Shown here one piece after another: positions 5,593-64,000 of a stretch of DNA of 64,000 nt. Position numbers and translations under genes: made by a program. Where the stretch lies: assembly GCA_035530615.1 (NCBI GenBank), contig DATKUL010000002.1, positions 868,001 through 932,000 on the forward strand, in the 5' to 3' direction. Position 1 is the stretch's first letter. Each line of letters opens with the position of its first letter. The stretch is from Candidatus Paceibacterota bacterium (GTDB lineage: Bacteria > Actinomycetota > Actinomycetes > Nanopelagicales > Nanopelagicaceae). The notes under the pieces are model-generated. The model saw nothing but the letters and a program-made list of their open reading frames with translations, was not told the origin of the DNA and searched no databases.

Positions 5593-6750
5593 CTACACAA
5601 CTAATTCGCGTACGATTCGGTCTGCAATGAGGCGCCCCTGAGGCGTTAATTGCAGGGATCCCTCGCTCCATCGCGATTTATCAAGGTGGCCGCTTTCACG
5701 GTACCCCTCAACTCTGGAAATCTGCTCCGCCGTTAGGTCACTCAGAAGGATTCCGTAGTGCATACGGATAGAGAGCATCACTTTCTCATCGCTTATTTGT
5801 TGAGGGGTGAGAGTCTCTCGTTCTTGCACAGGTGATTGAGAATTGATAAGAGCGTTCTTGTATGCAGTTGGGTGCTTGACGTTCCACCAACGTTCTCCAT
5901 ATAGATGGGAGTGTGCGCCTGGTCCCAACCCCCACCAATTCGCATTCTTCCAATAGGCAACGTTATGTCGGGATTCATGACCGGACTTTGCCCAGTTGCT
6001 CAACTCGTACCAAGTCAGACCGGATGCTTCACACATTTCATCAACGAGTAAATACATATCTGCCATGAGGTCGTCGCTTGGCATGGAAAGATCTCCGCGC
6101 TTGATCTGAGCCGCGAGTTTCGTCCCTGTCTCAACGATCAATGCATAAGCACTCAGATGATCGACTCCTAGAGAAAGGGCAGACTCAACTGAAGTCTTCC
6201 AATCTTCCAGACTCTCGCCCGGTGTCCCGTAAATGAGATCCAAACTAACGCTTTCGAATCCAGCATCCCGCGCCGCTTGCACAACACGGGCGATGCTTTC
6301 GGGATTGTGGGTTCGGTCCAAGACCTTCAATACATGAGGTACTGCAGATTGCATTCCGAACGAAATTCGATTAAATCCGACTTCACGTAACTCTTTGAGT
6401 TTCTGAACGTCGACCGTATCGGGATTCGCCTCCAAGGTAATCTCACACTCGGATGAGACATTCCATCGCTCTCTTATCGAGGAGATAACCCGTCCAAGAT
6501 CACGCGCCGGAAGCAGGCTCGGAGTGCCTCCCCCAAAGAAGATGGTGGGGACAGCACCTGGGGCTTCTGTATGAGCAATATCGAGTTCTCGCAAAACTGC
6601 ATCAATGTAATCAAAGGAGACGGTTTCTAAAGTGCCACCTTCGCGTAATTCACTTGGAGTGTAGGTATTGAAATCGCAGTACCCACAACGTTTCACGCAG
6701 TAAGGGATGTGAACGTAAAACGAGATATCTCCAGACTGGGTCGGAGCCAT
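5593..6750 (-). CDS. hemW: heme chaperone HemW (radical SAM, HemN-like)
   Basis: A 385-residue radical SAM protein. The iron-sulfur motif CVKRCGYC places cysteines at 18, 22 and 25, followed by the SAM-binding FFGGGTPSLL. The C-terminal HemN domain includes LGPGAHSHL. HemW binds heme and inserts it into respiratory proteins; it differs from coproporphyrinogen dehydrogenase HemN by its shorter N-terminus, as here. It lies 2 bases downstream of lepA, the classic lepA-hemW pair. Confidence 0.95.
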   Translation of the reverse strand: MAPTQSGDISFYVHIPYCVKRCGYCDFNTYTPSELREGGTLETVSFDYIDAVLRELDIAHTEAPGAVPTIFFGGGTPSLLPARDLGRVISSIRERWNVSSECEITLEANPDTVDVQKLKELREVGFNRISFGMQSAVPHVLKVLDRTHNPESIARVVQAARDAGFESVSLDLIYGTPGESLEDWKTSVESALSLGVDHLSAYALIVETGTKLAAQIKRGDLSMPSDDLMADMYLLVDEMCEASGLTWYELSNWAKSGHESRHNVAYWKNANWWGLGPGAHSHLYGERWWNVKHPTAYKNALINSQSPVQERETLTPQQISDEKVMLSIRMHYGILLSDLTAEQISRVEGYRESGHLDKSRWSEGSLQLTPQGRLIADRIVRELVV

Positions 6751-48669: not shown

Positions 48670-51183
48670 TTAACCGATGCTCAACGTGGAGCCGGAGGAG
48701 AACAATGACGTCGATGTTGCGGCGGCCGAAGACAACGACAAAAACTTGCTCTCTGACGTGAGTCGAGCTAACACCCTCTCCATATTGACGAACTCCCGGG
48801 TCAGCATCTCCTGCTGAATGCTGATCAGTTGCTTCCGTTGGACGATTTCGTTCATCACGTTGGCCAAAGTGTTGGTCAGGCCAGTGATTGTGGCTGGTAT
48901 CTGTCCACCGGGCGATGCTGTTACCTGATAGGCCACATTAGCCAGACTCTGGGCGAAACCGGGGTTGTAGTTGACTGTGCCAAGTGAGGTGGCTGTGACG
49001 ATACCCGGTGTGCCCACTTGGAGAAAGAGTCCATTGGCGGGATCGGCCTGGTTGGCCAGGGAGAGCATCTGACCCGATCCTGTGGCTGCCTGACCGTTAA
49101 TAGTTCCAGCCACATCAATGCCGGTATAGGTCGCACCTGATGTGAGGAGTCCCAACTGATCGGTGCCCGAGGCGCCGACCGTAAAAGTGGCCGTCGAACC
49201 GTAATCGGCGGAGGTAAGTTGCATTTGGTAGGACCCAGGCACGCCAGTCAGGGAGGCCGACGCACCGATCCCTGCCGCGGCCAACGCCGCGTTGATACCG
49301 CTGGCCACGGCGGCAATACTCTGACCAGCACCGATCGTATAGGTGACGGTGCTCGTGCCCGACGTGATTGTGTAGGTTTCTGCAGCAGCCAGAGTTGAGG
49401 TAGTCGCAGCGAATGCAGCCGAACCAACATCAAGAGCCTGGGACGCCGACTGACTGATCGACACCGCGTAACTACCCGGCGTTGTCATGTCTGTAGCACC
49501 CACGACGCTGACTTGACCGGCGTAGGCTGCATTCGCAGGGGAGAATGTCCCGCCTACGGTGAACATAGACCGAACTGCAGTGGGGTTTGCGTTGTAGGCC
49601 GATACAAACGCACTCTCATTAAAGGTGATGGTGCCCGTCGAGGTGATCGCCAACCCAGCAGATTCTCCGGGTGTGCCACTAGATCCAGCCGCCGAGGTGC
49701 CAATAGCGTTGCCCACAACGGACAAGATCCGCTGAGCCAGCGCGCCAATCGAAGTCTGACCGTTGAGAGGGCCTGCGACGCGGGTCGCCGGGTTGTAAGC
49801 GGTTTCGGTCGAAATGAACGAGAGAATCTTATTAGCCGCATCGACCAGCGCCGATACCTGACTGGCCATCTTGGAGCCGTCAGGTGCGATCGTGAGTGTC
49901 ACTGGAGTCGCACTCACCTGCGAAAGCGTCGCCGTCAGGCCGGGAAGCAGTCCTGTCACCGTGTTGGCGGAAGAAACCACCTGCAGACCACCCACTCCAC
50001 CCACCGAAATGATGGAATTCTGGGCAGCGGTCGTGGTCTGCATGATCCCGAGCGATGAGGTCGAGAACGCCTGGGTGTCGATTGTCGCCGCCCCTGTCAA
50101 TCCAGTCTTTAAGGATGTGATCTCCAGGACGTACTGGTTCGTGCCAACCTGCAGAGCGGTTGCGCTCACCCCGACATTTGCTCCGTTAATGGCGTTCACC
50201 ACTGATGCTAGAGACCCGTTGCCCACCGACACGTTCTGGGCGCTCATGCTCCCCAGATTCAAACTGCCGGAGAGATTGGCCGTTATCGATCCCCCACTCC
50301 CGGAGGCAAGAACAACCTGTGTCGTGCCGGTGGCGGCAATGCTTGTCACCGTCGTGGCCGTACCGTCAACGTTGATGATCCCGTCTGTGCCCGCGACAAT
50401 CGGACTGGTCGCCAACCCCACCGTGGCAAGTGCGCTACCTCCGGTGATTTGTAACGAGGCGGTCGAACCCTGATGAGCGGTAGCGATCGACAGAGCCCCG
50501 CCCGCCCCAACCGAGGCATTAAGCGTGCCACCTGAGGCTTGGGTGATTGCCTGGGTCAACTGCGTTGGAGTGTAGTTCCCCGTCGCGATGGTGAGGGTCG
50601 AAGCGACGCCGTCGACGCTCACGTCGATCGTGTTATTGGCCGATGTGATCGAGGTACTTCCCGCGAGCGCAGTACTGCCCGCCACCGTTGCACCGGTAGA
50701 GGCTTGAGTCACACTAATTGTATGAGCCCCCGCTAAAAGCGCAGCCTGACCACCAAAAGAGGCAACTCCTATGGCGGCGCCACCTGATCCGACCAGGTAA
50801 TTCCCAGAGGCCACCACGTTACTCGTCGCGGAAACCGTGCCCGCCGATATCTGGGTTGATCCCGTAGCTAACTGGTTCACGGCAAAGGTAATCGACCCGG
50901 CCTGGCTACCCGAAGTAATTGCACCAGTGGCGGCAAAGGAGTTGGACGAACCAACCGAGAAGGCTTGCGCAAAAGCCAATGGGTTGGACAGAGCATCACC
51001 AGCCTGTTTCATGGCAAGCAGGCCAGAGTTGATGGTCTGGTAGTCGGAAATCTGGGTATTCAGCATGGCCTGCCGCGACTGCAGTACCTGCAGCGGATAT
51101 TGGAAGATTGCCATCTGCGCATTGATAATCTGGCTGGTGTTGAGTCCCGATAACAGTCCACCAAAACTTACTGGTCCTGACAT
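48670..51183 (-). CDS. fliD: flagellar filament cap protein FliD
   Basis: 837 residues from the ATG at 51183 (GGAGAG upstream), much longer than the usual 450-600. The N-terminal SFGGLLSGLNTSQIINAQM and C-terminal IQQEMLTREFVNMERVLARL are FliD ends. The long middle has repeated Ala/Ser/Thr/Gly-rich flagellin-hook units (ITSGSQAGSITFAVNQLATG; ITSGTSTVTYTIGAGQSI), probably surface-exposed domains. Length and composition suggest extra cap domains. Confidence 0.92.
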   Translation of the reverse strand: MSGPVSFGGLLSGLNTSQIINAQMAIFQYPLQVLQSRQAMLNTQISDYQTINSGLLAMKQAGDALSNPLAFAQAFSVGSSNSFAATGAITSGSQAGSITFAVNQLATGSTQISAGTVSATSNVVASGNYLVGSGGAAIGVASFGGQAALLAGAHTISVTQASTGATVAGSTALAGSTSITSANNTIDVSVDGVASTLTIATGNYTPTQLTQAITQASGGTLNASVGAGGALSIATAHQGSTASLQITGGSALATVGLATSPIVAGTDGIINVDGTATTVTSIAATGTTQVVLASGSGGSITANLSGSLNLGSMSAQNVSVGNGSLASVVNAINGANVGVSATALQVGTNQYVLEITSLKTGLTGAATIDTQAFSTSSLGIMQTTTAAQNSIISVGGVGGLQVVSSANTVTGLLPGLTATLSQVSATPVTLTIAPDGSKMASQVSALVDAANKILSFISTETAYNPATRVAGPLNGQTSIGALAQRILSVVGNAIGTSAAGSSGTPGESAGLAITSTGTITFNESAFVSAYNANPTAVRSMFTVGGTFSPANAAYAGQVSVVGATDMTTPGSYAVSISQSASQALDVGSAAFAATTSTLAAAETYTITSGTSTVTYTIGAGQSIAAVASGINAALAAAGIGASASLTGVPGSYQMQLTSADYGSTATFTVGASGTDQLGLLTSGATYTGIDVAGTINGQAATGSGQMLSLANQADPANGLFLQVGTPGIVTATSLGTVNYNPGFAQSLANVAYQVTASPGGQIPATITGLTNTLANVMNEIVQRKQLISIQQEMLTREFVNMERVLARLTSESKFLSLSSAAATSTSLFSSGSTLSIG

Positions 51184-51216
51184 GAGCGTCACTCTCCATT
51201 CTTGACCTTGTACTTT

Positions 51217-51245
51217 TCGATGGCGTGATGGTTTCCTAATCTTGA
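51217..51245 (-). promoter_or_regulatory. possible weak sigma-28 promoter of fliD
   Basis: Minus strand TCAA (51245-51242), 17 bases, GCCATCGA (51224-51217). Spacing differs by one base from the other flagellar promoters and the -10 box is poorer. Confidence 0.3.
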
Positions 51246-51295
51246 TGGGGGAACCTGCTCTCACGTCTCACAGACGTATCCCATGAATAAAATCC

Positions 51296-51330
51296 GTCAC
51301 ACTCCGGGAAGTGAAGGCCCGGAGTGTGAC
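51296..51330 (-). terminator. fliC terminator
   Basis: A perfect 13-base inverted repeat (GTCACACTCCGGG and its complement) with a 9-base loop lies 8 bases past the fliC stop, followed on the minus strand by GGATTTTATT. A strong intrinsic terminator that would isolate fliC from fliD. Confidence 0.85.
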
Positions 51331-51337
51331 GGTTCGA

Positions 51338-52174
51338 TTACTGGAGTAGTTTCTGCGCCAAACTTGGTAGGTTCTGGGCTTGGTACAGAACCGACATACC
51401 CGCCTGTTGGAGAATCTGCAACGAGGCAAACCTGGTCGTCGCTTCCGCAACGTCCACGTTCACCAGGTTGGCATGAGCCGCGTCGATGTTCTCCTTCGCG
51501 GTCACCAGGTTGGAAGACAGTGATGTCATCCGGTTCTGGGTGGCACCGACGTTGGCCGCCTGGAGCGCAACCGAGGAAATCGCCGCCTGTACGGCAGTCA
51601 TCGCTGCCTGAGCTGCCGCTACCGTTCCAACACTGACCGAAGCGGAACTCACAGCCAACGCGCTCGAACTCGAATCAGCGATCGAAAGCGAAACTTGGTT
51701 ACTCGTAGTGTTATACGGACCAACCTGGAAAATCTGAGCAGTGTACGAACCATCCAGCAGAGAAGTTCCACCGAAGTTCGTACTTGCGGCAATCTGATCC
51801 AATTGGGCCTGCAGTGACGCAAACTGCGCCTGAGTTGCCGCCATTGTGGTGGCGGTCTGGGTACCACCGTTGGCAACCTGGGTAGCAAGAATGTTCATGG
51901 TCTGGAGGATAGAGGCTTCCTGACCCAGCGCGCCCTGTGCCGTTTGGAGCACCGACACAGCGCTCTGCACGTTGCTGATCGCCTGGGTGTAACCATTGCC
52001 TTGTTGTTCCAGATACTGCCCGATCACATACCCCGCAGGATTGTCGGAAGCCGATTGAATCTGTAAGCCTGACGAGAGCTGGCTGACGACTTTAGAAAGT
52101 GCAGTATACGTATTGGCAAGACTGTTGTATGAATTTACAGCCGAGGCGTTGTAATTGATATCGATACCCGCCAT
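51338..52174 (-). CDS. fliC: flagellin
   Basis: 278 residues from the ATG at 52174, chosen for the CAGGAGGAC site 10 bases upstream. The N-terminal helices (LSSGLQIQSASDNPAGYVIG) and C-terminal helices (ENIDAAHANLVNVDVAEATT, ending QNLPSLAQKLLQ) are the D0/D1 core; the central D2/D3 domain is almost absent, so the filament surface is mostly D1. The C-terminal hydrophobic residues bind FliS. Serines and threonines in the centre (SIADSSSSALAVSSASVSVG) are candidate glycosylation sites for the nearby glycosyltransferase. Confidence 0.95.
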   Translation of the reverse strand: MAGIDINYNASAVNSYNSLANTYTALSKVVSQLSSGLQIQSASDNPAGYVIGQYLEQQGNGYTQAISNVQSAVSVLQTAQGALGQEASILQTMNILATQVANGGTQTATTMAATQAQFASLQAQLDQIAASTNFGGTSLLDGSYTAQIFQVGPYNTTSNQVSLSIADSSSSALAVSSASVSVGTVAAAQAAMTAVQAAISSVALQAANVGATQNRMTSLSSNLVTAKENIDAAHANLVNVDVAEATTRFASLQILQQAGMSVLYQAQNLPSLAQKLLQ

Positions 52175-52199
52175 GGGATTTGTCCTCCTGTTGACTAGA

Positions 52200-52232
52200 T
52201 CTTTCCGAAGAAAGACGGGGCATCCTTGCCCC
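52200..52232 (-). promoter_or_regulatory. fliC leader hairpins (putative CsrA site)
   Basis: Right after the predicted transcript start, GGGGCA-AGGA-TGCCCC (52217-52232) is a perfect stem with an AGGA tetraloop. Next comes TCTTTC-TTCG-GAAAGA (52200-52215), a stem with the stable UUCG loop. The Shine-Dalgarno CAGGAGGA further on offers a second GGA. Two GGA sites, one in a hairpin, is the standard CsrA repression layout. Confidence 0.65.
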
Positions 52233-52239
52233 ACACTCA

Positions 52240-52267
52240 CATACGGACCATGAGGGCCAAAAGTTGA
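52240..52267 (-). promoter_or_regulatory. sigma-28 promoter of fliC
   Basis: Minus strand TCAA (52267-52264), 16 bases, TCCGTATG (52247-52240). Transcription is predicted to begin near 52233, at the foot of the leader hairpin. Confidence 0.65.
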
Positions 52268-52301
52268 GTGGGCTACAAAACTTCTTTACCTGGCCGAGGC
52301 A

Positions 52302-55088
52302 CTACGCATGATGTAGTAGTTCTTCCGCCCGGGCATTGCCGTGGCGAAGGTGATCGATAACCGCCAACCTGTCCCGCACTGCCTTAGCCGAGGCGCCTGT
52401 CGAGAAGAGCCGACGCCCTCGATCCTTTGCCCTCGCTGCCTTCGCAGTAGCCAATTTCGGTTGCTCAAAGACCAAGCGCATCGCCTTGGCCGCCTCATCA
52501 AGATCTGGCTCGGCCCATCGCCCGTCAGCGGCACCCTGGCGTTCACTCTCAGAAATCGGGACACGATTGCATGGGATCAGAAAACCCTCACGTCCGTCCT
52601 GCAGTTCCGCACTGAACGAATGACGTGTCACGATTGTCGGAATTCCCAGAGAGATCGCACGCGCCAGCACACGACCGGTCCCCTCGCTTCGATGAAGCGA
52701 GACATAGCACGATTGCCCCGCTACCCGACTGTTGAGGATCCGCCCGGAAATACCGTGAGAGTCACTCAACACGACCATGTCAGATCGGCCCGCAAGGGCG
52801 GCGACGAGCCGAGCGTGATCGGCGGGATAATGCTCCGCGTGAGCCGTCTCGATCACGAGCCTGGGTCCTTCGCCGGGTCGAAACGCCTTGCCGAAAGCCT
52901 CCACGATACCTAGAGGATTCTGCCGCTCAAACCCGATGTCGTAATCGACACTGGCCAAAAAAGTGAATCCAGCGGCAGCGGGACTTTCTCGTAACGGTGG
53001 TTGCTCGTGGCTCACAGGAAGAAACATTCGCATCACCGGTCGGTCGGTCGCTTGAGCGACCGCGTCGGCGGTAAATGTCGACGGTACCCAAATTTCGTGG
53101 ACCATGCGGGCAGCCGTACTCATCATCTGCGAGGGCCGCTCAAAGTCCCAGAGCCACAGACCGATCATGTAACGATTCTCAAAGGCGGAAGCACCATTGT
53201 CCATCACGAAATTGGCCAGTTCTTCCGGCGAGATCACCAGAATCGTCGTGTCAAAAGGGTAATCTCCGTCGTCACCATGAGTCCACTCCTCTGAACCCGG
53301 TCGACCGTTCGACTGGTAGCTGGTCGTCGACACCTTCACGCCATGGCTGGCCAATGCCGAAGCCAACGTACGAGCCACGTGAGCTGCGGCGGTCGTGCCC
53401 TCAAATGAGCCCACCACGTTAACACCGCCACGACGAGCGCGTGCGGCAACCTTCGGCACCGGCGCCACCCCAATAGACCGTCCACGCTCGATGAAACTCG
53501 GAATCATCGCTGGTGTCATCTCATTCACTGCAACGCTGTCGACGTGATGAGCTTCAAGCAGGCCCGGTGCCAACCGACCAATCTGTTCATCCGCCTCGAC
53601 ACGTGCTGCCGAATCAAGTCGACTACGCGCCTCGTGCACAGCATTGATGACCCCATGGTCGCCGAAACTTCCAAATGCCGCCGCGCCAGCGAGAATACGC
53701 AACCTCGGATCTACGTCAGTATTGCGAGCCATCAACAGCAAGGGACAGGCCCGCTCCAGCCCCCGCGCACGAAGCCGCGCCGACCAGACAAGCGCCCTAG
53801 CCACCGGCAAGCGCGGTCCGAGCCTGCCGGCGGCGGCCAGTGGTTCGAGCTGATCTGGAAACCTCACCCAGATCGCCTCCAATAACGCATCAGCGACATC
53901 CATTGGTTGACTTAGCATCCGCCCGAGCACCCCCACCAGGTCGGCAACATCCAATACCTCAACTATCTCCAATACTGACCTATCCGCCGTAATGAGCCAG
54001 GAGATAAGTTCACCTAGATCCGCAGCGAACAGACCTTCGCCGCGAATTGCCTCAAGCACAACGTCAGCTGCCTCAGCAAATCTTCCAAGAGAGGCCAAAG
54101 CCTCACCTCGCACGGCTGCGAGCATATGGGCGGTGTACTCCATACCGTCATCGTCGCGACCACGCGGAGGAACGCGGGCCAATAGGGACAGCCCTGCCTC
54201 GGTCTCACCCATGGAGATCCTCATACGGCCTTCGGCGATGTCGGCCGCAATCTGAAGAACAGAGATTCTGCGCAATTCCTCCACCTGAGCAAGAGCTTCG
54301 TCGAATCGGCCCAGGCGGCCCAGAATGTAGATGAGGTTCTTCAGGGCCATCCCGTGGGTGATCGAACTCTCTGAGATCGAAACCGCCTCTTTCAAGGCCT
54401 GGACCGCCTCCTCGCTGCGGTTAGCCGTCTCAAGGGCTCGGCCGTAGTTCATCAAGCCGTAGGCCCGACTCTGACCCTTATCACCGAGAGCGGCCTTCGC
54501 GAGTTCGAGGTTGCGCTCGGCCTTATTTTTGCCTTGAAACACCTCGGCGACATAGCCGTAGTGGATAACACGTGCCCCACTCAAGTAACTGGTTCGCAAG
54601 GGCCGATCTGGATCGTCGATGGCAACCACTTGCTCGTGGAGACGGTGGCGATAGACAGCCACGCTGCGGCGGAAGAGACGGGTCGATGTATGGACCATGC
54701 GAGCATTCCCCGCCCCCTGGAGGTTCTCGACTGCTACCAAAAACGCCTCAACTTCTGAACCCTGGCTCTCTAGCAGAGTTCGCAAGGCCTGCCGATCGCC
54801 AAGAAATCTCTCGTCGGCATCGATCACAAGAACCCACTCGCCGAGTGCCTGTTCTAGTGCGGCGTTGCGAGCGCGAGCGAAGGAGCCATCCCAATAACCC
54901 TCAAAGACTCGAGCCCCCATACTCCGCGCAATCTCGACAGTACTGTCACTCGACCCGGTGTCATACACAACGATCTCGTCAACGACATCGGCCACCGACT
55001 CAAGACACGACCGAAGCATCGCCTCCTCATCTTTGACGATGAGGCAGACCGAGAGCAGAGGTGCGACGGTGGCCGTAGGGTGTGTCAT
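52302..55088 (-). CDS. giant two-domain glycosyltransferase with TPR region (putative flagellin glycosyltransferase)
   Basis: About 928 residues from the ATG at 55088 (AGGTGA upstream; a GTG at 55100 is an alternative). The N-terminal GT2 domain has SVCLIVKDEEAMLRSCLESV and VYDTGSSDSTVEIA with the acidic VIDADERFL. A middle region of TPR-like helices follows (NRSEEAVQALKEAVSISESS), then a C-terminal GT4/GT-B-like domain (VNVVGSFEGTTAAAHVARTL; LHRSEGTGRVLARAISLGIP). It is transcribed from a sigma-28-type promoter next to fliC. Transfer of sugar to flagellin is inferred from context. Confidence 0.82.
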   Translation of the reverse strand: MTHPTATVAPLLSVCLIVKDEEAMLRSCLESVADVVDEIVVYDTGSSDSTVEIARSMGARVFEGYWDGSFARARNAALEQALGEWVLVIDADERFLGDRQALRTLLESQGSEVEAFLVAVENLQGAGNARMVHTSTRLFRRSVAVYRHRLHEQVVAIDDPDRPLRTSYLSGARVIHYGYVAEVFQGKNKAERNLELAKAALGDKGQSRAYGLMNYGRALETANRSEEAVQALKEAVSISESSITHGMALKNLIYILGRLGRFDEALAQVEELRRISVLQIAADIAEGRMRISMGETEAGLSLLARVPPRGRDDDGMEYTAHMLAAVRGEALASLGRFAEAADVVLEAIRGEGLFAADLGELISWLITADRSVLEIVEVLDVADLVGVLGRMLSQPMDVADALLEAIWVRFPDQLEPLAAAGRLGPRLPVARALVWSARLRARGLERACPLLLMARNTDVDPRLRILAGAAAFGSFGDHGVINAVHEARSRLDSAARVEADEQIGRLAPGLLEAHHVDSVAVNEMTPAMIPSFIERGRSIGVAPVPKVAARARRGGVNVVGSFEGTTAAAHVARTLASALASHGVKVSTTSYQSNGRPGSEEWTHGDDGDYPFDTTILVISPEELANFVMDNGASAFENRYMIGLWLWDFERPSQMMSTAARMVHEIWVPSTFTADAVAQATDRPVMRMFLPVSHEQPPLRESPAAAGFTFLASVDYDIGFERQNPLGIVEAFGKAFRPGEGPRLVIETAHAEHYPADHARLVAALAGRSDMVVLSDSHGISGRILNSRVAGQSCYVSLHRSEGTGRVLARAISLGIPTIVTRHSFSAELQDGREGFLIPCNRVPISESERQGAADGRWAEPDLDEAAKAMRLVFEQPKLATAKAARAKDRGRRLFSTGASAKAVRDRLAVIDHLRHGNARAEELLHHA

Positions 55089-55107
55089 TTGAGGATTCAC
55101 CTAACGT

Positions 55108-56729: not shown

Positions 56730-56803
56730 TGATCTGCCCAACGTTCTTCCGACACCTATCTGGATGTCTAGATTAGGAGGTGTCCGAAGAACGTTGGGCA
56801 GAT
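56730..56803. repeat. 27-bp inverted repeat, 20-base loop
   Basis: Arms 56730-56756 and 56777-56803 match at 26 of 27 positions (GATCTGCCCAACGTTC and its complement at the outer part). It could be the tips of a deleted insertion sequence, a MITE, or a transcribed hairpin. No gene flanks it within 160 bases. Confidence 0.75.
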
Positions 56804-57047
56804 CAAAGCGGTTTCTGTAGGGCCCCGGACCAATGACTACAACACCCTTTTCTCTGAGGGTCCATCGAACCACAAGCGAGGACACTTCTGATTGGCCAAC
56901 TTGACCTCAGTGGTTACACGCTCTCGGATGTCAGGCTGATCGATTCGAGCATGCGATTCCATATGAGTGAAGTCCTGCCGGGCATCTTCGCAATATAAGG
57001 CAAATGAAATGACCCTCGTTGACGAAGCGAAGGTCACTCCACCGTTA

Positions 57048-57120
57048 TGCGACTGGTGAGAGTCGAACTCACCGCCTGCCCTACGTCATGAGGCTGCTCT
57101 ATCCGCTGAGCTACAGCCGC
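57048..57120 (-). tRNA. tRNA-Val(GAC), atypical anticodon arm
   Basis: A 73-base cloverleaf reads on the minus strand. The acceptor GCGGCTG pairs with CAGTCGC, the D arm is GCTC/GAGC, the T arm is GTGAG-TTCGACT-CTCAC, and the discriminator is A. The anticodon loop ATGACGT gives GAC (valine). The anticodon stem GCCTC/AGGGC has a C-A mismatch next to the loop and a T-G pair, and position 37 is G where valine tRNAs usually have A. CCA is not encoded. It may be a diverged functional tRNA or a decaying copy. Confidence 0.75.
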
Positions 57121-57232
57121 ATGAGTCGAAGGTAGTTCGCAAGACTCTTGTTCCTAAGCATGAAAGTTTGGAGTGTTAATAAGTAACGCATGTGAGTGGT
57201 GCTAAGGTTTAGTTACCTACGTCATTGGGCAT

Positions 57233-57279: not shown

Positions 57280-57323
57280 TTCACTATGTCTGGAGACATC
57301 TGTTCACTATGTCTCGACACATC
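57280..57323. repeat. 21-bp direct repeat
   Basis: TTCACTATGTCT followed by GGAGACATC or CGACACATC occurs at 57280-57300 and 57303-57323. It resembles terminal repeats of some integrase-type elements; no transposase is nearby. Confidence 0.55.
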
Positions 57324-57424: not shown

Positions 57425-57820
57425 TTATCGAGAGAACTTTCGCCACAGCCGAAGCAAGATACCCGGCTTGCGTTGACCCGGTTGTCTAATCGCATAGTAA
57501 TCCGACCGTCGCGAGACCTCTCTCTCTCGCCCCATCTGAATCTGATCTTCTGTCCATCGACCACTCCAGATGACCTCACCCCTAGTAATCAAGTAGTGGG
57601 AACGACAGGGAAGTTGCCAGTTTCCAATAGATGGGTGCAGTGAAACGCCCTGCGACCCTTCGTCGACGCTCCACTCCGTTGGCCCGATGGGTGTACGAAT
57701 TTTGGTTCCACAACCACACGCACAGAGGTGTGCAGCAGCGCCATACTCCTCAGCAAAATAGAGGACACCCGGCTCGAGGACTTTTGGCATGAAATGCACA
57801 CGCTCGAGTTTGATTCTCAC
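57425..57820 (-). CDS. DUF6527 family protein (ubiquitin-like operon)
   Basis: 131 residues beginning at a GTG that overlaps the E1-like gene stop. Cysteines at 33, 35 and 37 (HLCACGCGTKIR), then SLHPSIG (60-66) and CRSHYLITRGEVIWSG (72-87), are the DUF6527 signature and look like a metal-binding or catalytic site. Proteins of this family occur in operons with multiubiquitin-domain and ThiF proteins; a maturation or deconjugation role is suggested by that context but cannot be shown here. The basic C-terminus (RKPGILLRLWRKFSR) could contact membrane or nucleic acid. Confidence 0.8.
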   Translation of the reverse strand: MRIKLERVHFMPKVLEPGVLYFAEEYGAAAHLCACGCGTKIRTPIGPTEWSVDEGSQGVSLHPSIGNWQLPCRSHYLITRGEVIWSGRWTEDQIQMGREREVSRRSDYYAIRQPGQRKPGILLRLWRKFSR

Positions 57821-59013
57821 TCGGAACCTTCTTCGTAAGTTTTGAGTTCAGCGATGTTGAAAATGTGGTGATATGCCGGAGTGTCGTCTCGATAAAACCC
57901 GGCTCGATGCTTGTACTTAATAATCGCCATCGCAGCATTTAATGCGTTCAGCTCGGCAATCTGTATGTTCGCGCGATAGAGATTATCAGGTTCATCAACC
58001 AGTGCAGCGAATCCGCGGTCCCGTCTCTTTGATGCTTGATCTGGTGGGAAGTAAGTTGTACGGATAAGACCACTCAAACCGTCAGACTTCTTTTTCAGTC
58101 CCATGCCCACGTCCGCAAATGGGATCCCGGTGTTGATAAGGAGGTCAAATATGCGCGCCCGCGACGAACCTTTGTCCACGCACACAAACGCAAAGGTGAC
58201 ACCCTCGATTGCGTCCAGACTGGTCTCATCGATGTAGGTAGGCTCAAGCACCAACCCATGGCGGAAGTTTCCATATCGATCTTCCATGACTTGCGCTTTA
58301 GACTTGCCGAACTCTTCTTCAAGAGCTCGGCCGGGTGCGCGGAATGCGTTGTGCACATGAAAGTTGTCACCATCAAAACCGCGGATCTCCTTCACACGGG
58401 TCTTGACTAGGAAGTCCAAAACATAGGACCCAGTCCCGCCCAAGCCGATTACGGCCACTACCTCATCCTCAAACTTCGATGCGAGTGCAGCAATCTCCGC
58501 CCGGCTTGTGAGTGTATCGCGGAATTTGAAGATGGGATCGTTTGCGTCATCAGTAACCGACCTGTACGAAAGGGGTGAGACCCTGTGAGCCTCAATCGCG
58601 GGACCGCTGATGATCGCGACATAACTCTCAATTTTCGCGAAAAAGTCCACGAACCCTGTGAGAACGCCGCTAACTCTGGGCTTGTTCGAAAATGACCGCT
58701 CCACTTTGACATCGACACAAGTCTCACTTAGCGGAATGCTGGCCGGTCCGCCACCCAGGTTTGCGATGGGACTTCCGTCCAGCTCGTGAGGAGTAGATCC
58801 TGCAAAAAATATCTGGTGATCGGTCTGCTTGACGTAGTTCAGATCGATGAACTCCAACTTTGCAACGATGGCACCCCACTGCAATTCTCCAAGCGAGCCA
58901 AGATAAGGGATGTCACGAACCACTAGATGGTTCGTGACATCAAAGGCGACCGCGTAACCCTTATTGACAAGTCGCGCTAGGTCGTCGTTATGACTGACCA
59001 GTCTCTGAAACAC
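57817..59013 (-). CDS. ThiF family E1-like activating enzyme with N-terminal DUF6791-like region
   Basis: 398 residues. Residues 1-160 form an extension resembling DUF6791 (GYAVAFDVTNHLVVRDIPYL). The ThiF domain has the nucleotide loop GLGGTGS at 180-186, the acidic FDGDN at 203-207, and the N and R of HVHNAFR at 212 and 215, as expected for ATP-dependent adenylation. Only two cysteines exist (99 and 268), and neither sits where E1 enzymes carry the catalytic cysteine. The gene overlaps the ubiquitin-like gene by 26 bases and probably starts at GTG. Confidence 0.86.
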   Translation of the reverse strand: MFQRLVSHNDDLARLVNKGYAVAFDVTNHLVVRDIPYLGSLGELQWGAIVAKLEFIDLNYVKQTDHQIFFAGSTPHELDGSPIANLGGGPASIPLSETCVDVKVERSFSNKPRVSGVLTGFVDFFAKIESYVAIISGPAIEAHRVSPLSYRSVTDDANDPIFKFRDTLTSRAEIAALASKFEDEVVAVIGLGGTGSYVLDFLVKTRVKEIRGFDGDNFHVHNAFRAPGRALEEEFGKSKAQVMEDRYGNFRHGLVLEPTYIDETSLDAIEGVTFAFVCVDKGSSRARIFDLLINTGIPFADVGMGLKKKSDGLSGLIRTTYFPPDQASKRRDRGFAALVDEPDNLYRANIQIAELNALNAAMAIIKYKHRAGFYRDDTPAYHHIFNIAELKTYEEGSE

Positions 59014-59248
59014 TGAAGCTCATACCTTCCTTGACCTTAACGGACGCACCTGGCACCAATACACCTTCCGGTTTCTCCCCGTGACCATTGCGGTAAGTGA
59101 CCGCGTAGGTGATGTCCGTGTGCTGCGGATAGTCAGGCACTTCAAGGGTAACGACTTGAGCGTACGAGATGTCCTCGTTCTTGGGCCACTCGTGTGGCGT
59201 GCCTTCTACGATGATGGTTACTATTTTCGAATCTTGAGCGTGTTCCAT
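58988..59248 (-). CDS. ubiquitin-like protein of the multiubiquitin family
   Basis: 86 residues, one beta-grasp domain. TIIVEGTPHEWPKNEDISYA, the Pro-rich VPDYPQHTDITYAVTY, and GHGEKPEGVLVPG followed by VKVKEGMSFSV are the features of the bacterial multiubiquitin family, KPEG at 59-62 being the hallmark. The C-terminus is ETGQS with no Gly-Gly. CGGAGG lies upstream of the ATG. It is the first gene of the operon and the presumed modifier activated by the ThiF protein. Confidence 0.88.
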   Translation of the reverse strand: MEHAQDSKIVTIIVEGTPHEWPKNEDISYAQVVTLEVPDYPQHTDITYAVTYRNGHGEKPEGVLVPGASVKVKEGMSFSVSETGQS

Positions 59249-59914
59249 TTCTCTAACCTCCGATATCCAAGTTCGCTAACGAATGTACTATTCCCGTAAT
59301 GGCTCGCTAGCCACGACTCTTTCCTTTCGACAAAAGTCGCATACAGCGATTTTAGTAAGTGCAAAGACTCACCCCGGTAGGTGGGGTTCACTTCCACAAT
59401 GTCACGGTATCAGCGGGCACTGACAACCGGTCGATGCCTTCTGACTGGCAGGCTTCAACAGGTCGTCGGGTCACTGAATCGTCTAGAGATCTTCGCAACC
59501 ACTTGAGCTAATTTGTCAGCACCTGAGTGACCGGAGTCAACGTTAGCGCCGCAGATGACTGAACAACTATCGAAAAGGCTCTTTCAAGACCCGCAAGGAC
59601 GCCGAGACTAACAACACCCAGCGCTAGAGCAACAATTCGAGGCAAAGATTCATGGGCCTCTTCATTGCTTACATAAACGTGTGGACAGAACTGCGTTTTA
59701 AGAACCCTAGCATGGTGGGGCTCCGGTCGCGGAAAGAGCCGAGGTGCCGGAAATCGACCCCCGGGTCCTTCGGTATCAATACAGGAATTCTACGGGCGCA
59801 GTGTGTTTAACATTTTCTCAGTCCCGGATCTGACTGAGATATGTTGAGTCTATGGTTAATCTGGAGGGATTCCCGCACATCAGCCAGACGCACACGTCGC
59901 TGCGGCACTTGGCA
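59249..59914. other. intergenic stretch with tRNA/tmRNA-like 3' remnant
   Basis: No credible gene. Around 59745-59768 the minus strand reads GGACCCGGGGGTCGAT then TTCCGGCACCTC, close to the T-arm and 3' end of actinobacterial tmRNA (CCGGG-TTCGATT-CCCGG-CACCTC) but with changes in loop and acceptor. It may be a decayed attachment site. Confidence 0.35.
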
Positions 59915-61012
59915 CTACCGGTGGCGGTTCCTACGAAGCCGGACGTTCTCTTTTTTGATCTTTGCACCATCCCGTGCCAATCGTGCAACCGACAGAACAA
60001 GATTTTCCTGTACCTTGCGGTCGGTCATAGGGAGCGACACCTTTTGAGGCTCCAGCCTCTCATGGAGATTCGTCCAGGAGTCTTGGCCCATACCGCGAAT
60101 AAACGCCTTGCTCGACGCCAATTCTTCATGGTGGGCATGCGCACGCTGCGCAAACTCCCGCGAGAATGGCAGCAGGTGTGACTCGAGATACTCCTCGAGA
60201 TAGTCCACGTGAACAATGTCGATCGCCGAGGTCTCGCCATGTTCATAACTAGGCGTTGCAGCGTCCGGTTCGTTGCGCCACAGCCGTTGCCATTGAACAT
60301 TTTGCAATGTTGTCGTGCCATCGTCACTGACCACCGCCGACAGCATAGGTGCATCGATCACGCTAAGCGCGACGACGAGCTGAGCATCAAAGTAGTGGGC
60401 TGTCGAGGGTGGAGTAAGCGCGCTGCGGTAGTGGTCAACGGCACTGCGCAGAGGCAAGACAATCGATTGATAAGGATCTGATCCCGAGAGCACGATGTCC
60501 TGACCTTTGCGTTCACATCTACTGAACGTGACGCAAGAGGACGGACTGAGGATGAATTTGTGGCGGTCGAGTCCAAGGGTAAAAAGTATGGGAAGATTCC
60601 AAGTGGAACGATCATCATCAGTTTTCACGACAAGCAGTTCGCTCTTCAAACCTGAGACATGCGGAAAGTTCCCGTAAGGCGACTCCGACTCAGTGAAGAA
60701 GACATAAGGTAGGTCCGAGCGCTTACACTCAATAAGCAATGCGACCCCGGCGCGAACCCTGAATTTATTCGGATTATCATCCGCAAGATTGATCGTGGCA
60801 AGTATGTCGAGCGCCCGCATATCGCCAGTTGTCCGATCGAGGAAACCCCATTCAGGTTGCTGCTGCACGCGTTCAACCTGCCTGAGCTTGTGCGAAACGA
60901 CCGTTTGCAACGGGTAACCAGATTTCGCGACCGCCTTCAAGATCTGGTCCTCTGAGACACCCGCAGGTAGCGACAAACTTGCCTGGACCTCTGCTTGATC
61001 ATCTTGTTTCAT
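59915..61012 (-). CDS. unknown protein with PD-(D/E)XK nuclease-like N-terminal domain
   Basis: 365 residues, AAGGAG 10 bases upstream of the ATG. EWGFLDRTTGDMRALDILA with D at 69, then LLIECKRSD with E95 and K97, form a PD-(D/E)XK pattern as in restriction-type endonucleases. The rest (residues 110-365) is not recognised; it has mixed character and a basic end (RLRRNRHR). It is a single-gene unit between the ubiquitin-like operon and tRNA-Ala. A defence role is a guess from context. Confidence 0.65.
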   Translation of the reverse strand: MKQDDQAEVQASLSLPAGVSEDQILKAVAKSGYPLQTVVSHKLRQVERVQQQPEWGFLDRTTGDMRALDILATINLADDNPNKFRVRAGVALLIECKRSDLPYVFFTESESPYGNFPHVSGLKSELLVVKTDDDRSTWNLPILFTLGLDRHKFILSPSSCVTFSRCERKGQDIVLSGSDPYQSIVLPLRSAVDHYRSALTPPSTAHYFDAQLVVALSVIDAPMLSAVVSDDGTTTLQNVQWQRLWRNEPDAATPSYEHGETSAIDIVHVDYLEEYLESHLLPFSREFAQRAHAHHEELASSKAFIRGMGQDSWTNLHERLEPQKVSLPMTDRKVQENLVLSVARLARDGAKIKKENVRLRRNRHR

Positions 61013-61285: not shown

Positions 61286-61361
61286 TGGTGGAGCTGAGGG
61301 GATTTGAACCCCTGACCCCCTGCATGCCATGCAGGTGCGCTACCAGCTGCGCCACAGCCCC
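61286..61361 (-). tRNA. tRNA-Ala(GGC)
   Basis: A 76-base canonical cloverleaf with encoded CCA. Acceptor GGGGCTG/CAGCTCC, D arm GCGC/GCGC, anticodon stem CCTGC/GCAGG with loop ATGGCAT (anticodon GGC), T arm AGGGG-TTCAAAT-CCCCT. It is a plausible integration site for the accessory genes around it. Confidence 0.95.
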
Positions 61362-61428: not shown

Positions 61429-61476
61429 CTTATTTCTCCCCGTTGGTTCCGCGCCACTCTCTTCGCCGTAAACGGG
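61429..61476. repeat. direct repeat, left copy
   Basis: 48 bases; matches 63842-63890 except for a few substitutions and one missing base. Same orientation. Confidence 0.75.
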
Positions 61477-61527
61477 TTCGTGGATTGGTTGGAAGAGGTT
61501 GATTTCTCCTGGCGCACCTGCTCCCAT
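61429..61527 (-). pseudogene. degenerate copy of a gene 3' end
   Basis: The minus strand encodes PVYGEESGAEP, as in the partial gene at the right end of the window, but one base is missing just afterward, so the frame runs past the original stop. Upstream residues (GAPGEINLFQPIHE) differ from that gene. It marks the left boundary of the two-gene module 61622-63707. Confidence 0.6.
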
Positions 61528-63098: not shown

Positions 63099-63707
63099 TC
63101 ACCCCTGCCCTATTTCGTGACTGCGAATGATCCCTAAGTGTTCAAGCGAGAGAACCAATTGCTCTTGCTTTTCCGACAAAATAATCAACCACAATCTATC
63201 AGCAACAATTTTGCAGCGGTCCATGTCTATTCTTGCTCTCGCATCATCCTCCGATATACCGACATCAAAAATACGGGCTCTTTGCTCGATTACGGCCTCA
63301 GTGACCCAGGATGATGAGCACAAATCGGCCCATTGGGTGACACCATGAGGTGCCCAGGCAATCCACATAAAATGATCAGAGAATCCAGGCTGTAATTCAA
63401 TCATAACGTAGCATTTTGCCAAATATTCTTTGTACTGCTGCCCCAGAGTTGACCCACTCGCATAATTTTTAACCTCAGCAAAGAAAGTTTTACCCTCAAG
63501 ATCACCATGTCTAAAGAATCCCAACAGGTCAAAACTAAATGTTTCCCTATCAACCGGCCACGCGCCTGCTAGTTTCTCAGCTGCACCTCTATCTGGATTT
63601 ACCCAAGGTACTTCGGCTCGTGATGTTCCTTCAAGCCAACGCTTTGCTCGTCTTGCACCATCCGCACCTTTGGCGTGTAGGGCTTCACCTACAATGGTTT
63701 TTTGCAT
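63099..63707 (-). CDS. nuclease-like protein (PD-(D/E)XK pattern), first gene of the module
   Basis: 202 residues from the ATG at 63707; a TTG 27 bases upstream would add nine residues. FSFDLLGFF then KTFFAEVKNY gives D60, E78 and K80, the PD-(D/E)XK pattern of restriction-like enzymes. The remainder (HFMWIAWAPHGVTQWADLCS) is not recognised. The AT-rich composition matches its partner. Function is likely DNA cleavage or binding in a defence or mobile context, by analogy only. Confidence 0.65.
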   Translation of the reverse strand: MQKTIVGEALHAKGADGARRAKRWLEGTSRAEVPWVNPDRGAAEKLAGAWPVDRETFSFDLLGFFRHGDLEGKTFFAEVKNYASGSTLGQQYKEYLAKCYVMIELQPGFSDHFMWIAWAPHGVTQWADLCSSSWVTEAVIEQRARIFDVGISEDDARARIDMDRCKIVADRLWLIILSEKQEQLVLSLEHLGIIRSHEIGQG

Positions 63708-63841
63708 GCAAGTGACTCTAGCGTTGGCTTTCAACTTCGTCTAGGAAAATGACTGAGCAAAGCTACTTATCCAACAAATTGTTTTACAACGTGGCCCCTG
63801 CATTGCAGCAACGCGAATAATTTCGATAAAGCCAACAGCCT

Positions 63842-63890
63842 CTTATTTCTCCCCGTTCGGCTCTGCGCCACTCTCTTCGCCGTAAACCGG
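63842..63890. repeat. direct repeat, right copy
   Basis: 49 bases spanning the stop codon and last 15 codons of the partial gene at the window end. The left copy is at 61429. Confidence 0.75.
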
Positions 63891-64000
63891 CTCAGGAATT
63901 GACCCCGAATTGTGCTCGACCAGGTGCCAGCCTTTCGGACTCATTTGAAGGATGGACCACGCGGCATTGGAAAGTCCACCGATCACGCCCCAATGAGTCT
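63843..64000 (-). CDS. C-terminal part of an unknown protein (window edge)
   Basis: About 51 codons are visible on the minus strand, with TAA at 63843-63845. Visible pieces are WGVIGGLSNAAWSILQMSPK, GWHLVEHNSGS and the acidic end PVYGEESGAEPNGEK. The family is not recognised. The final segment is duplicated, with a frameshift, 2.4 kb away. Confidence 0.7.
   Translation of the reverse strand, partial: THWGVIGGLSNAAWSILQMSPKGWHLVEHNSGSIPEPVYGEESGAEPNGEK

Follow-up and report, generated by a model that had tools for sequence, protein, structure and literature searches.

How could a ubiquitin-like protein (Ubl) be activated and passed on by an operon in which no gene encodes a recognisable E2 or JAB peptidase? 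This question is raised by a locus on a 64,000-nucleotide stretch of DNA (the window, in which positions are counted unless another contig or locus is named). The initial annotation, made from the letters alone, had described a compact Ubl conjugation operon at 57425–59248, and three overlapping open reading frames were found on the minus strand at exactly these coordinates.

Gene content of the operon

The first gene (58988–59248) encodes the Ubl, a single multiubiquitin-type beta-grasp protein of 86 amino acids (Multi_ubiq, PF14452, 2.2e-14). It is followed by a gene for an E1-like protein of 398 amino acids (57817–59013) that combines DUF6791 (PF20590, 3.1e-36) with a ThiF domain (8.7e-11), and by a gene for a small, beta-rich DUF6527 protein of 131 amino acids with a Cys/His cluster (57425–57820; PF20137, 2.3e-22). 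The latter two genes start with GTG. The Ubl and E1 genes overlap by 26 nt, since the E1 gene begins at 59013, while the E1 and DUF6527 genes overlap by 4 nt. All four Pfam matches exceed the curated cut-offs, which bears out the families named at the outset, including the Cys/His-rich DUF6527 protein. NCBIfam assigned the E1-like protein to PRK06153.1-2 with 580.7 bits (cut-off 419). Compared with the nearest relative (L005), dN was far below a partly saturated dS in all three genes, with dN/dS values of 0.05/0.99 for the Ubl, 0.16/1.97 for the E1-like protein (dS near saturation) and 0.20/1.23 for DUF6527. Near its start, the E1 gene also holds a perfect 15-bp inverted repeat with a 3-nt loop (58909–58941) that is absent from relatives.

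Distribution of the triplet

A lack of co-occurrence of the three genes elsewhere had been set beforehand as a refuting condition, and it clearly does not hold. We scanned GTDB genomes with the E1-like protein and kept 80 loci. Searches with jackhmmer found the Ubl and the E1 in 80 of 80 and DUF6527 in 79, in one gene order throughout; in the 80th locus, which lacks DUF6527, the E1 match was partial (residues 1–281). The same order was present in 15 further DUF6791-type loci. Recurrence of the triplet is thus far beyond chance. One close relative (L004) carries an in-frame stop within its E1 gene (6217–6219).

The 80 loci come from at least 10 phyla, and the 12 phylum labels on the tree need 20 label changes. 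Tight pairs join Actinomycetota with Bacillota (L008 and L009) and Bacteroidota with Thermodesulfobacteriota (L013 and L017), and because many tree rows are metagenome bins, contamination may explain some of these cross-phylum pairs. The rows nearest to the window copy, at about 75%, belong to two actinobacterial bins. Relatives occurred in 114 plasmid records and in none of the phage records and viral contigs searched. Prevalence was low, with 3 of 396 actinobacterial genomes (the window's own counted) and 8 of 398 genomes in the phylum of L012. The operon is a horizontally spread, mobile accessory module.

Comparison with known systems

This kind of operon is not new: it has been catalogued since 2006 as type 6e (Iyer et al. 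2006, PMC1779556). As described there, the Ubl of type 6e has between one and three Ub-like domains, and the E1 carries JAB at its N-terminus, except in a subset where an unrelated domain X takes this place. A metal-binding protein Y is encoded as well and, optionally, an inactive RWD/E2-like protein; the spread of type 6e is sporadic, Actinobacteria included, and domain X was given no fold (PMC1779556). The window operon has a multiubiquitin-type Ubl of one domain, an E1 in which DUF6791 precedes ThiF at the place of JAB or X, and DUF6527. It thereby shares with the domain-X subset the Ubl, the E1 whose N-terminal domain replaces JAB and, probably, protein Y, but differs by its solo Ubl and by having no RWD/E2-like protein. 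We infer that DUF6791 is domain X and DUF6527 protein Y, matched by description and not by accession. The spacing C33-x3-C37-x34-C72-x2-H75 in DUF6527 is similar to C-x3-C-x35-38-H-x2-C in protein Y, with the last two ligands swapped, and DUF6527 is probably a metal-binding partner. In the literature searched, we found no publication assigning a function to DUF6791 or DUF6527.

The JAB form of type 6e was present in loci L089–L093 and L101–L111 with the order Ubl, E2 (PF14462) and JAB-ThiF, and DUF6527 was present wherever enough flank was read. At the Citrobacter plasmid locus L102, the proteins align over their full length with the solved BubA, BubB and BubCD, so that the Bub pathway (PDB 9ea4, 9ea5, 9ea8, 9eae, 9eav) represents a structurally solved, JAB-bearing sister operon. 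Both operons have a multiubiquitin-type Ubl, a homologous E1 domain and DUF6527 (downstream in L102). However, Bub carries JAB at the N-terminus of its E1 and a separate E2 (BubB), whereas the window operon has DUF6791 and neither of these. The Ubl tails differ as well: many JAB-form Ubls have Gly at or near the end and Gly229 is the last residue of the crystallised BubA construct deposited in the PDB, while the window Ubl ends in Ser. The BubCD-type adenylation domain is present, yet JAB and E2 were both looked for and not found; therefore we do not file the operon as a JAB-form Bub pathway. In a JAB-form operon on a Chroococcidiopsis plasmid (L109, 4292–5659), an IS4-family transposase gene lies directly behind a short JAB-only protein, and no ThiF is annotated in that stretch.

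Other systems are more remote. The anti-phage conjugation system Bil (BilABCD) shares the logic of a Ubl with an E1-like enzyme, but its separate E2 with a catalytic Cys and its separate JAB (PMC11354881) are both lacking in the window operon. E1-E2 fusions of CBASS and 6A-MBL (PADLOC E1-E2, NF058523) would share the logic of an E2-E1 fusion if DUF6791 is E2-like; for 6A-MBL, only the ThiF stretch matches, at 26 bits against an NCBIfam cut-off of 320. PADLOC gave no match to a system-specific model: its E1-E2 models covered the ThiF stretch in part, and the Ubl and DUF6527 stayed unmatched.

Absence of E2 and JAB

The claim that the operon has no separate E2 or JAB held. Pfam found no match to either among the three genes, and at the place of JAB on the E1 it found DUF6791, for which profile comparison gave no JAB match. 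A hidden E2 elsewhere in the genome was considered and rejected: a profile search of the whole genome for Prok-E2_E (PF14462), limited to this E2 family, gave no match, and the family was lacking in 29 of 34 genomes searched, the window's among them. The sole Prok-JAB match of the genome lies outside the operon, on another contig (L094, 1465–2186), where its neighbours are a MurI-like gene and a small CysO-like Ubl with a GG tail. We rejected it as the missing protease, since this arrangement resembles the known Mec-CysO pair.

The adenylation domain and the tail of the Ubl

The ThiF/E1 adenylation domain (57820–58512, minus strand) keeps GxGGTG, D214, D216, H221-N222, R225, K239 and D280, and the adenylation residues are retained out to distant E1 members. 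The motifs GLGGTGS and FDGDN given in the initial annotation are real. The AF2 model of the whole protein had a mean pLDDT of 89.1 and a pTM of 0.62. By Foldseek E-value, its best structural match was Citrobacter BubCD, with Z 24.1, rmsd 2.4 and 18–19% identity over 217–220 residues; this match covers residues 173–398 and therefore lies outside DUF6791. ThiF, SUMO E1 and UBA5 scored nearly as high, and MoeB, MccB and PaaA were matched as well. No catalytic Cys is conserved among near and 11 distant E1 members, the near-conserved C278 being lost in the distant ones. Judged by conservation, the adenylation site is intact and a conserved cysteine absent, in contrast to the catalytic E1 Cys of the ubiquitin-type thioester cascade.

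The Ubl comprises a single PF14452 domain, as it does in most near relatives, some of which have three. Its profile matches the C-terminal domain of a solved structure, the ZDHYS365 multiubiquitin protein (9cd2), at 1.2e-16. Only the C-terminal stretch of this 222-residue protein aligns with the 86-residue window Ubl; this homologous beta-grasp domain also ends in Ser (...TDKS). The KPEG hallmark proposed for the fold stood in part: its Gly (G62) is near-invariant (0.99), while the rest varies, with NQPEG, KKHEG and NKPAG occurring.

The Ubl ends T-G-Q-S-COOH (58991–59002, minus strand). Among 81 near sequences, the terminal Ser sits exactly at the stop codon in 80 (S86, 0.99), and Ser is the tail end in 15 of 15 further DUF6791-type Ubls; the Gly of TGQS is not retained in these. 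Residues 6–8 of the E1, read from the bases of the Ubl end, fall short of 0.9 conservation, and constraint in the overlap therefore seems to act on the Ubl frame. Because the invariant Ser is encoded directly before the stop codon, a maturation protease would not be needed, which makes doubtful the earlier statement that other parts of the operon must supply processing. Since this Ubl ends in Ser and a conserved catalytic cysteine is missing, the chemistry is probably unlike that of classical ubiquitination.

DUF6791 as candidate substitute

The initial annotation had assigned the missing functions to the N-terminal extension of the E1 and to DUF6527. We rejected DUF6527 as a stand-in for both missing parts: since it also accompanies operons with JAB and E2, it does not replace either. 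Thus only DUF6791 sets this type apart, which makes it the more likely replacement for E2, JAB or both.

The domain spans residues 10–167 (58513–58986, minus strand). DSSP on the AF2 model gave the order helix, helix, four strands, loop, strand and long helix, which by eye is compatible with a UBC/RWD fold. The residues kept are L15, G19, P36, Y37, G47, H66, G72, P75, G80, S109, K111, P112, K127 and Y131, among which His66, Ser109, Lys111, Lys127 and Tyr131 are deep-invariant. Ser109 (codon 58687–58689), in the motif F-S-x-K-P, is invariant in near members and in 11 of 11 distant ones and is our proposed nucleophile; His66 (codon 58816–58818), its candidate partner, is conserved at 0.99 overall and in 11 of 11 distant members. 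What is new here as sequence evidence are the invariant Ser tail, the E1 without a conserved Cys and these deep-invariant residues.

Aligned with HHalign, DUF6791 scored 22.1 against Prok-E2_E (P=0.006); the best of 150 column shuffles reached 20.1, and no such match was obtained with JAB, DUF6527 or the Ubl. With a deliberately diverse DUF6791 profile, the score against Prok-E2_E was 15.7 (P=0.077), and 10 of 200 shuffles were as good. Ser109 falls near the Ser of the sister-operon E2, not in exact alignment with it. The resemblance to E2 is therefore a lead rather than proof. In the sister-operon E2 itself, this Ser is invariant (20 of 20) and no Cys is conserved. For Bub, oxyester chemistry has reportedly been described by Ye and colleagues in 2026, and the invariant Ser without conserved Cys would fit it.

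Proposed mechanism and rival explanations

Taken as a whole, the locus is best explained as a type 6e operon in which the Ubl is adenylated and then transferred as an oxyester through Ser109 of DUF6791, a reading to which we give a probability of roughly one half. The ThiF domain would bind the Ubl and adenylate its C-terminal carboxylate. The activated Ubl would then be handed on with no thioester step; most likely it would form an oxyester on Ser109, helped by His66, Lys111, Lys127 and Tyr131. Fused to the E1, DUF6791 would stand in for the missing E2 and pass the Ubl to its target. DUF6527 may bind the target, bind the Ubl, or act in hydrolysis through Ser64 and His75. More tentatively, the operon may amount to a complete three-gene conjugation system that does without a catalytic cysteine, a separate E2, JAB and a maturation protease, and in which a Ser-ended Ubl forms a Ser oxyester on the UBC-like DUF6791 part of the E1 protein. 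If the oxyester reading is true, the operon would encode a ubiquitin-like conjugation system of very small size, with a bearing on the evolution of ubiquitination. The Ser tail, the Cys-free E1 and the few invariants of DUF6791 make a mechanism without E2 and JAB reducible to point mutants of three small proteins.

DUF6791 could instead replace JAB, as a serine protease or deconjugase with a Ser109-His66 dyad, and transfer would then fall to the E1 directly or together with DUF6527. Serine proteases with a Ser-His dyad are said to occur in the 'type II' pathways of the Bub study by Ye et al., and the deep invariance of His66 and Ser109 would suit such a dyad. DUF6791 moreover occupies the exact place of JAB in the sister E1, in line with what Iyer et al. 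proposed for domain X (PMC1779556). A deconjugase would, however, leave the operon with no E2, its Ubl has no removable tail, and the only profile similarity of DUF6791, a weak one, is to E2 rather than to JAB; we consider this reading possible, though clearly less probable than oxyester transfer.

Tagging of other proteins might also not occur at all, the Ubl being a modified small protein, a sulfur-type carrier or a non-covalent regulator of the E1. ThiF relatives can have biosynthetic roles in which peptides are acted on and no proteins are conjugated, and ThiF, MoeB, MccB and PaaA, some of which modify small proteins or peptides, match the E1 domain structurally; the missing conserved Cys would suit such roles, too. 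But BubCD, rather than ThiF, comes closest in structure, the terminal Ser differs from the GG tail of sulfur carriers, and biosynthetic genes do not recur near relatives, where only regulators do. This makes an explanation without conjugation improbable. Less probable still is that DUF6527 transfers or hydrolyses, through Ser64-His75 or Cys33, while DUF6791 merely positions the Ubl or substrates. C33, P63, S64 and H75 are indeed present in 50 of 50 DUF6527 sequences from both operon types. Yet DUF6527 is equally present where an operon encodes E2 and JAB itself, so that the loss of both here would go unexplained, and its Cys/His cluster looks structural. The AF2 model of DUF6527 is beta-rich (mean pLDDT 90.7) and had no significant match in a PDB structure search, which does not make its fold new.

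Regulators and genomic context

In 62 of the 80 loci, an XRE and/or ImmA/IrrE-like gene of one cluster lies upstream, mostly in divergent orientation, and a scan of 150 upstream neighbours gave 52 matches to Peptidase_M78 and 46 to HTH_3. No conserved fourth gene was found near the operon in the relatives' loci, these regulators being the only recurrent neighbours. From this context, the divergent pair probably controls expression in most relatives. It is alike, by family only, to the CapH+CapP helix-turn-helix and peptidase pairs, which are reported as DNA-damage-responsive neighbours of Bub operons (PMC13373217). The window copy has no such pair in its upstream gap of 0.67 kb (59249–59914), in which no gene was recognised. 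Some plasmid relatives adjoin genes for a UvrD-like helicase, a RecB-like nuclease or a WYL protein, or toxin-antitoxin or Tn7-like genes. From its context, a role of the operon in defence is plausible.

The operon-bearing stretch is bordered on the left by an extra copy of tRNA-Val (gac; 57047–57121) and on the right by tRNA-Ala (ggc; 61286–61361), both on the minus strand. This tRNA-Val is the third copy; with its flank, it is about 86% identical to the other two, which lie 11 kb apart on another contig (L130, 1471–1545 and 12486–12560). The G+C content of the operon DNA is 0.49–0.54, against 0.55–0.60 to the left, and in a search of 100 genomes for relatives no other genome scored above the cut-off. 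Accessory DNA between two tRNA genes, as first proposed, is thus upheld; the tRNA borders, the lower G+C and the extra tRNA-Val copy fit an acquired island. The nuclease-like neighbours fared less well: they were read from motifs, and no family library named them. By eye, the genes at 59915–61012 (365 amino acids) and 63099–63734 (211 amino acids) show PD-(D/E)XK-nuclease-like motifs (D...ECK and D...EVK). No homologue of the 365-residue gene, which adjoins the operon, occurs at the loci of the relatives.

Several smaller features were noted around the operon. A 2.4-kb segment of low G+C with the genes for 488 and 211 amino acids looks as if inserted beside the tRNA-Ala. A 50-nt repeat (61438–61487 and 63852–63901, 80% identical) corresponds to the 3' end of a histidine-phosphatase-like gene (from about 63843 onward) that is part-duplicated beside this tRNA. 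Downstream of the operon lie two 21-nt direct repeats (57280–57323), TTCACTATGTCTGGAGACATC and a 90% copy, and an inverted repeat at 56730–56805 has 28-nt arms that are 96% complementary and 20 nt apart. Left of the island (48670–55100), translations point to FliD-like and flagellin-like genes and to a long glycosyltransferase-like protein with no close relative in the genus.
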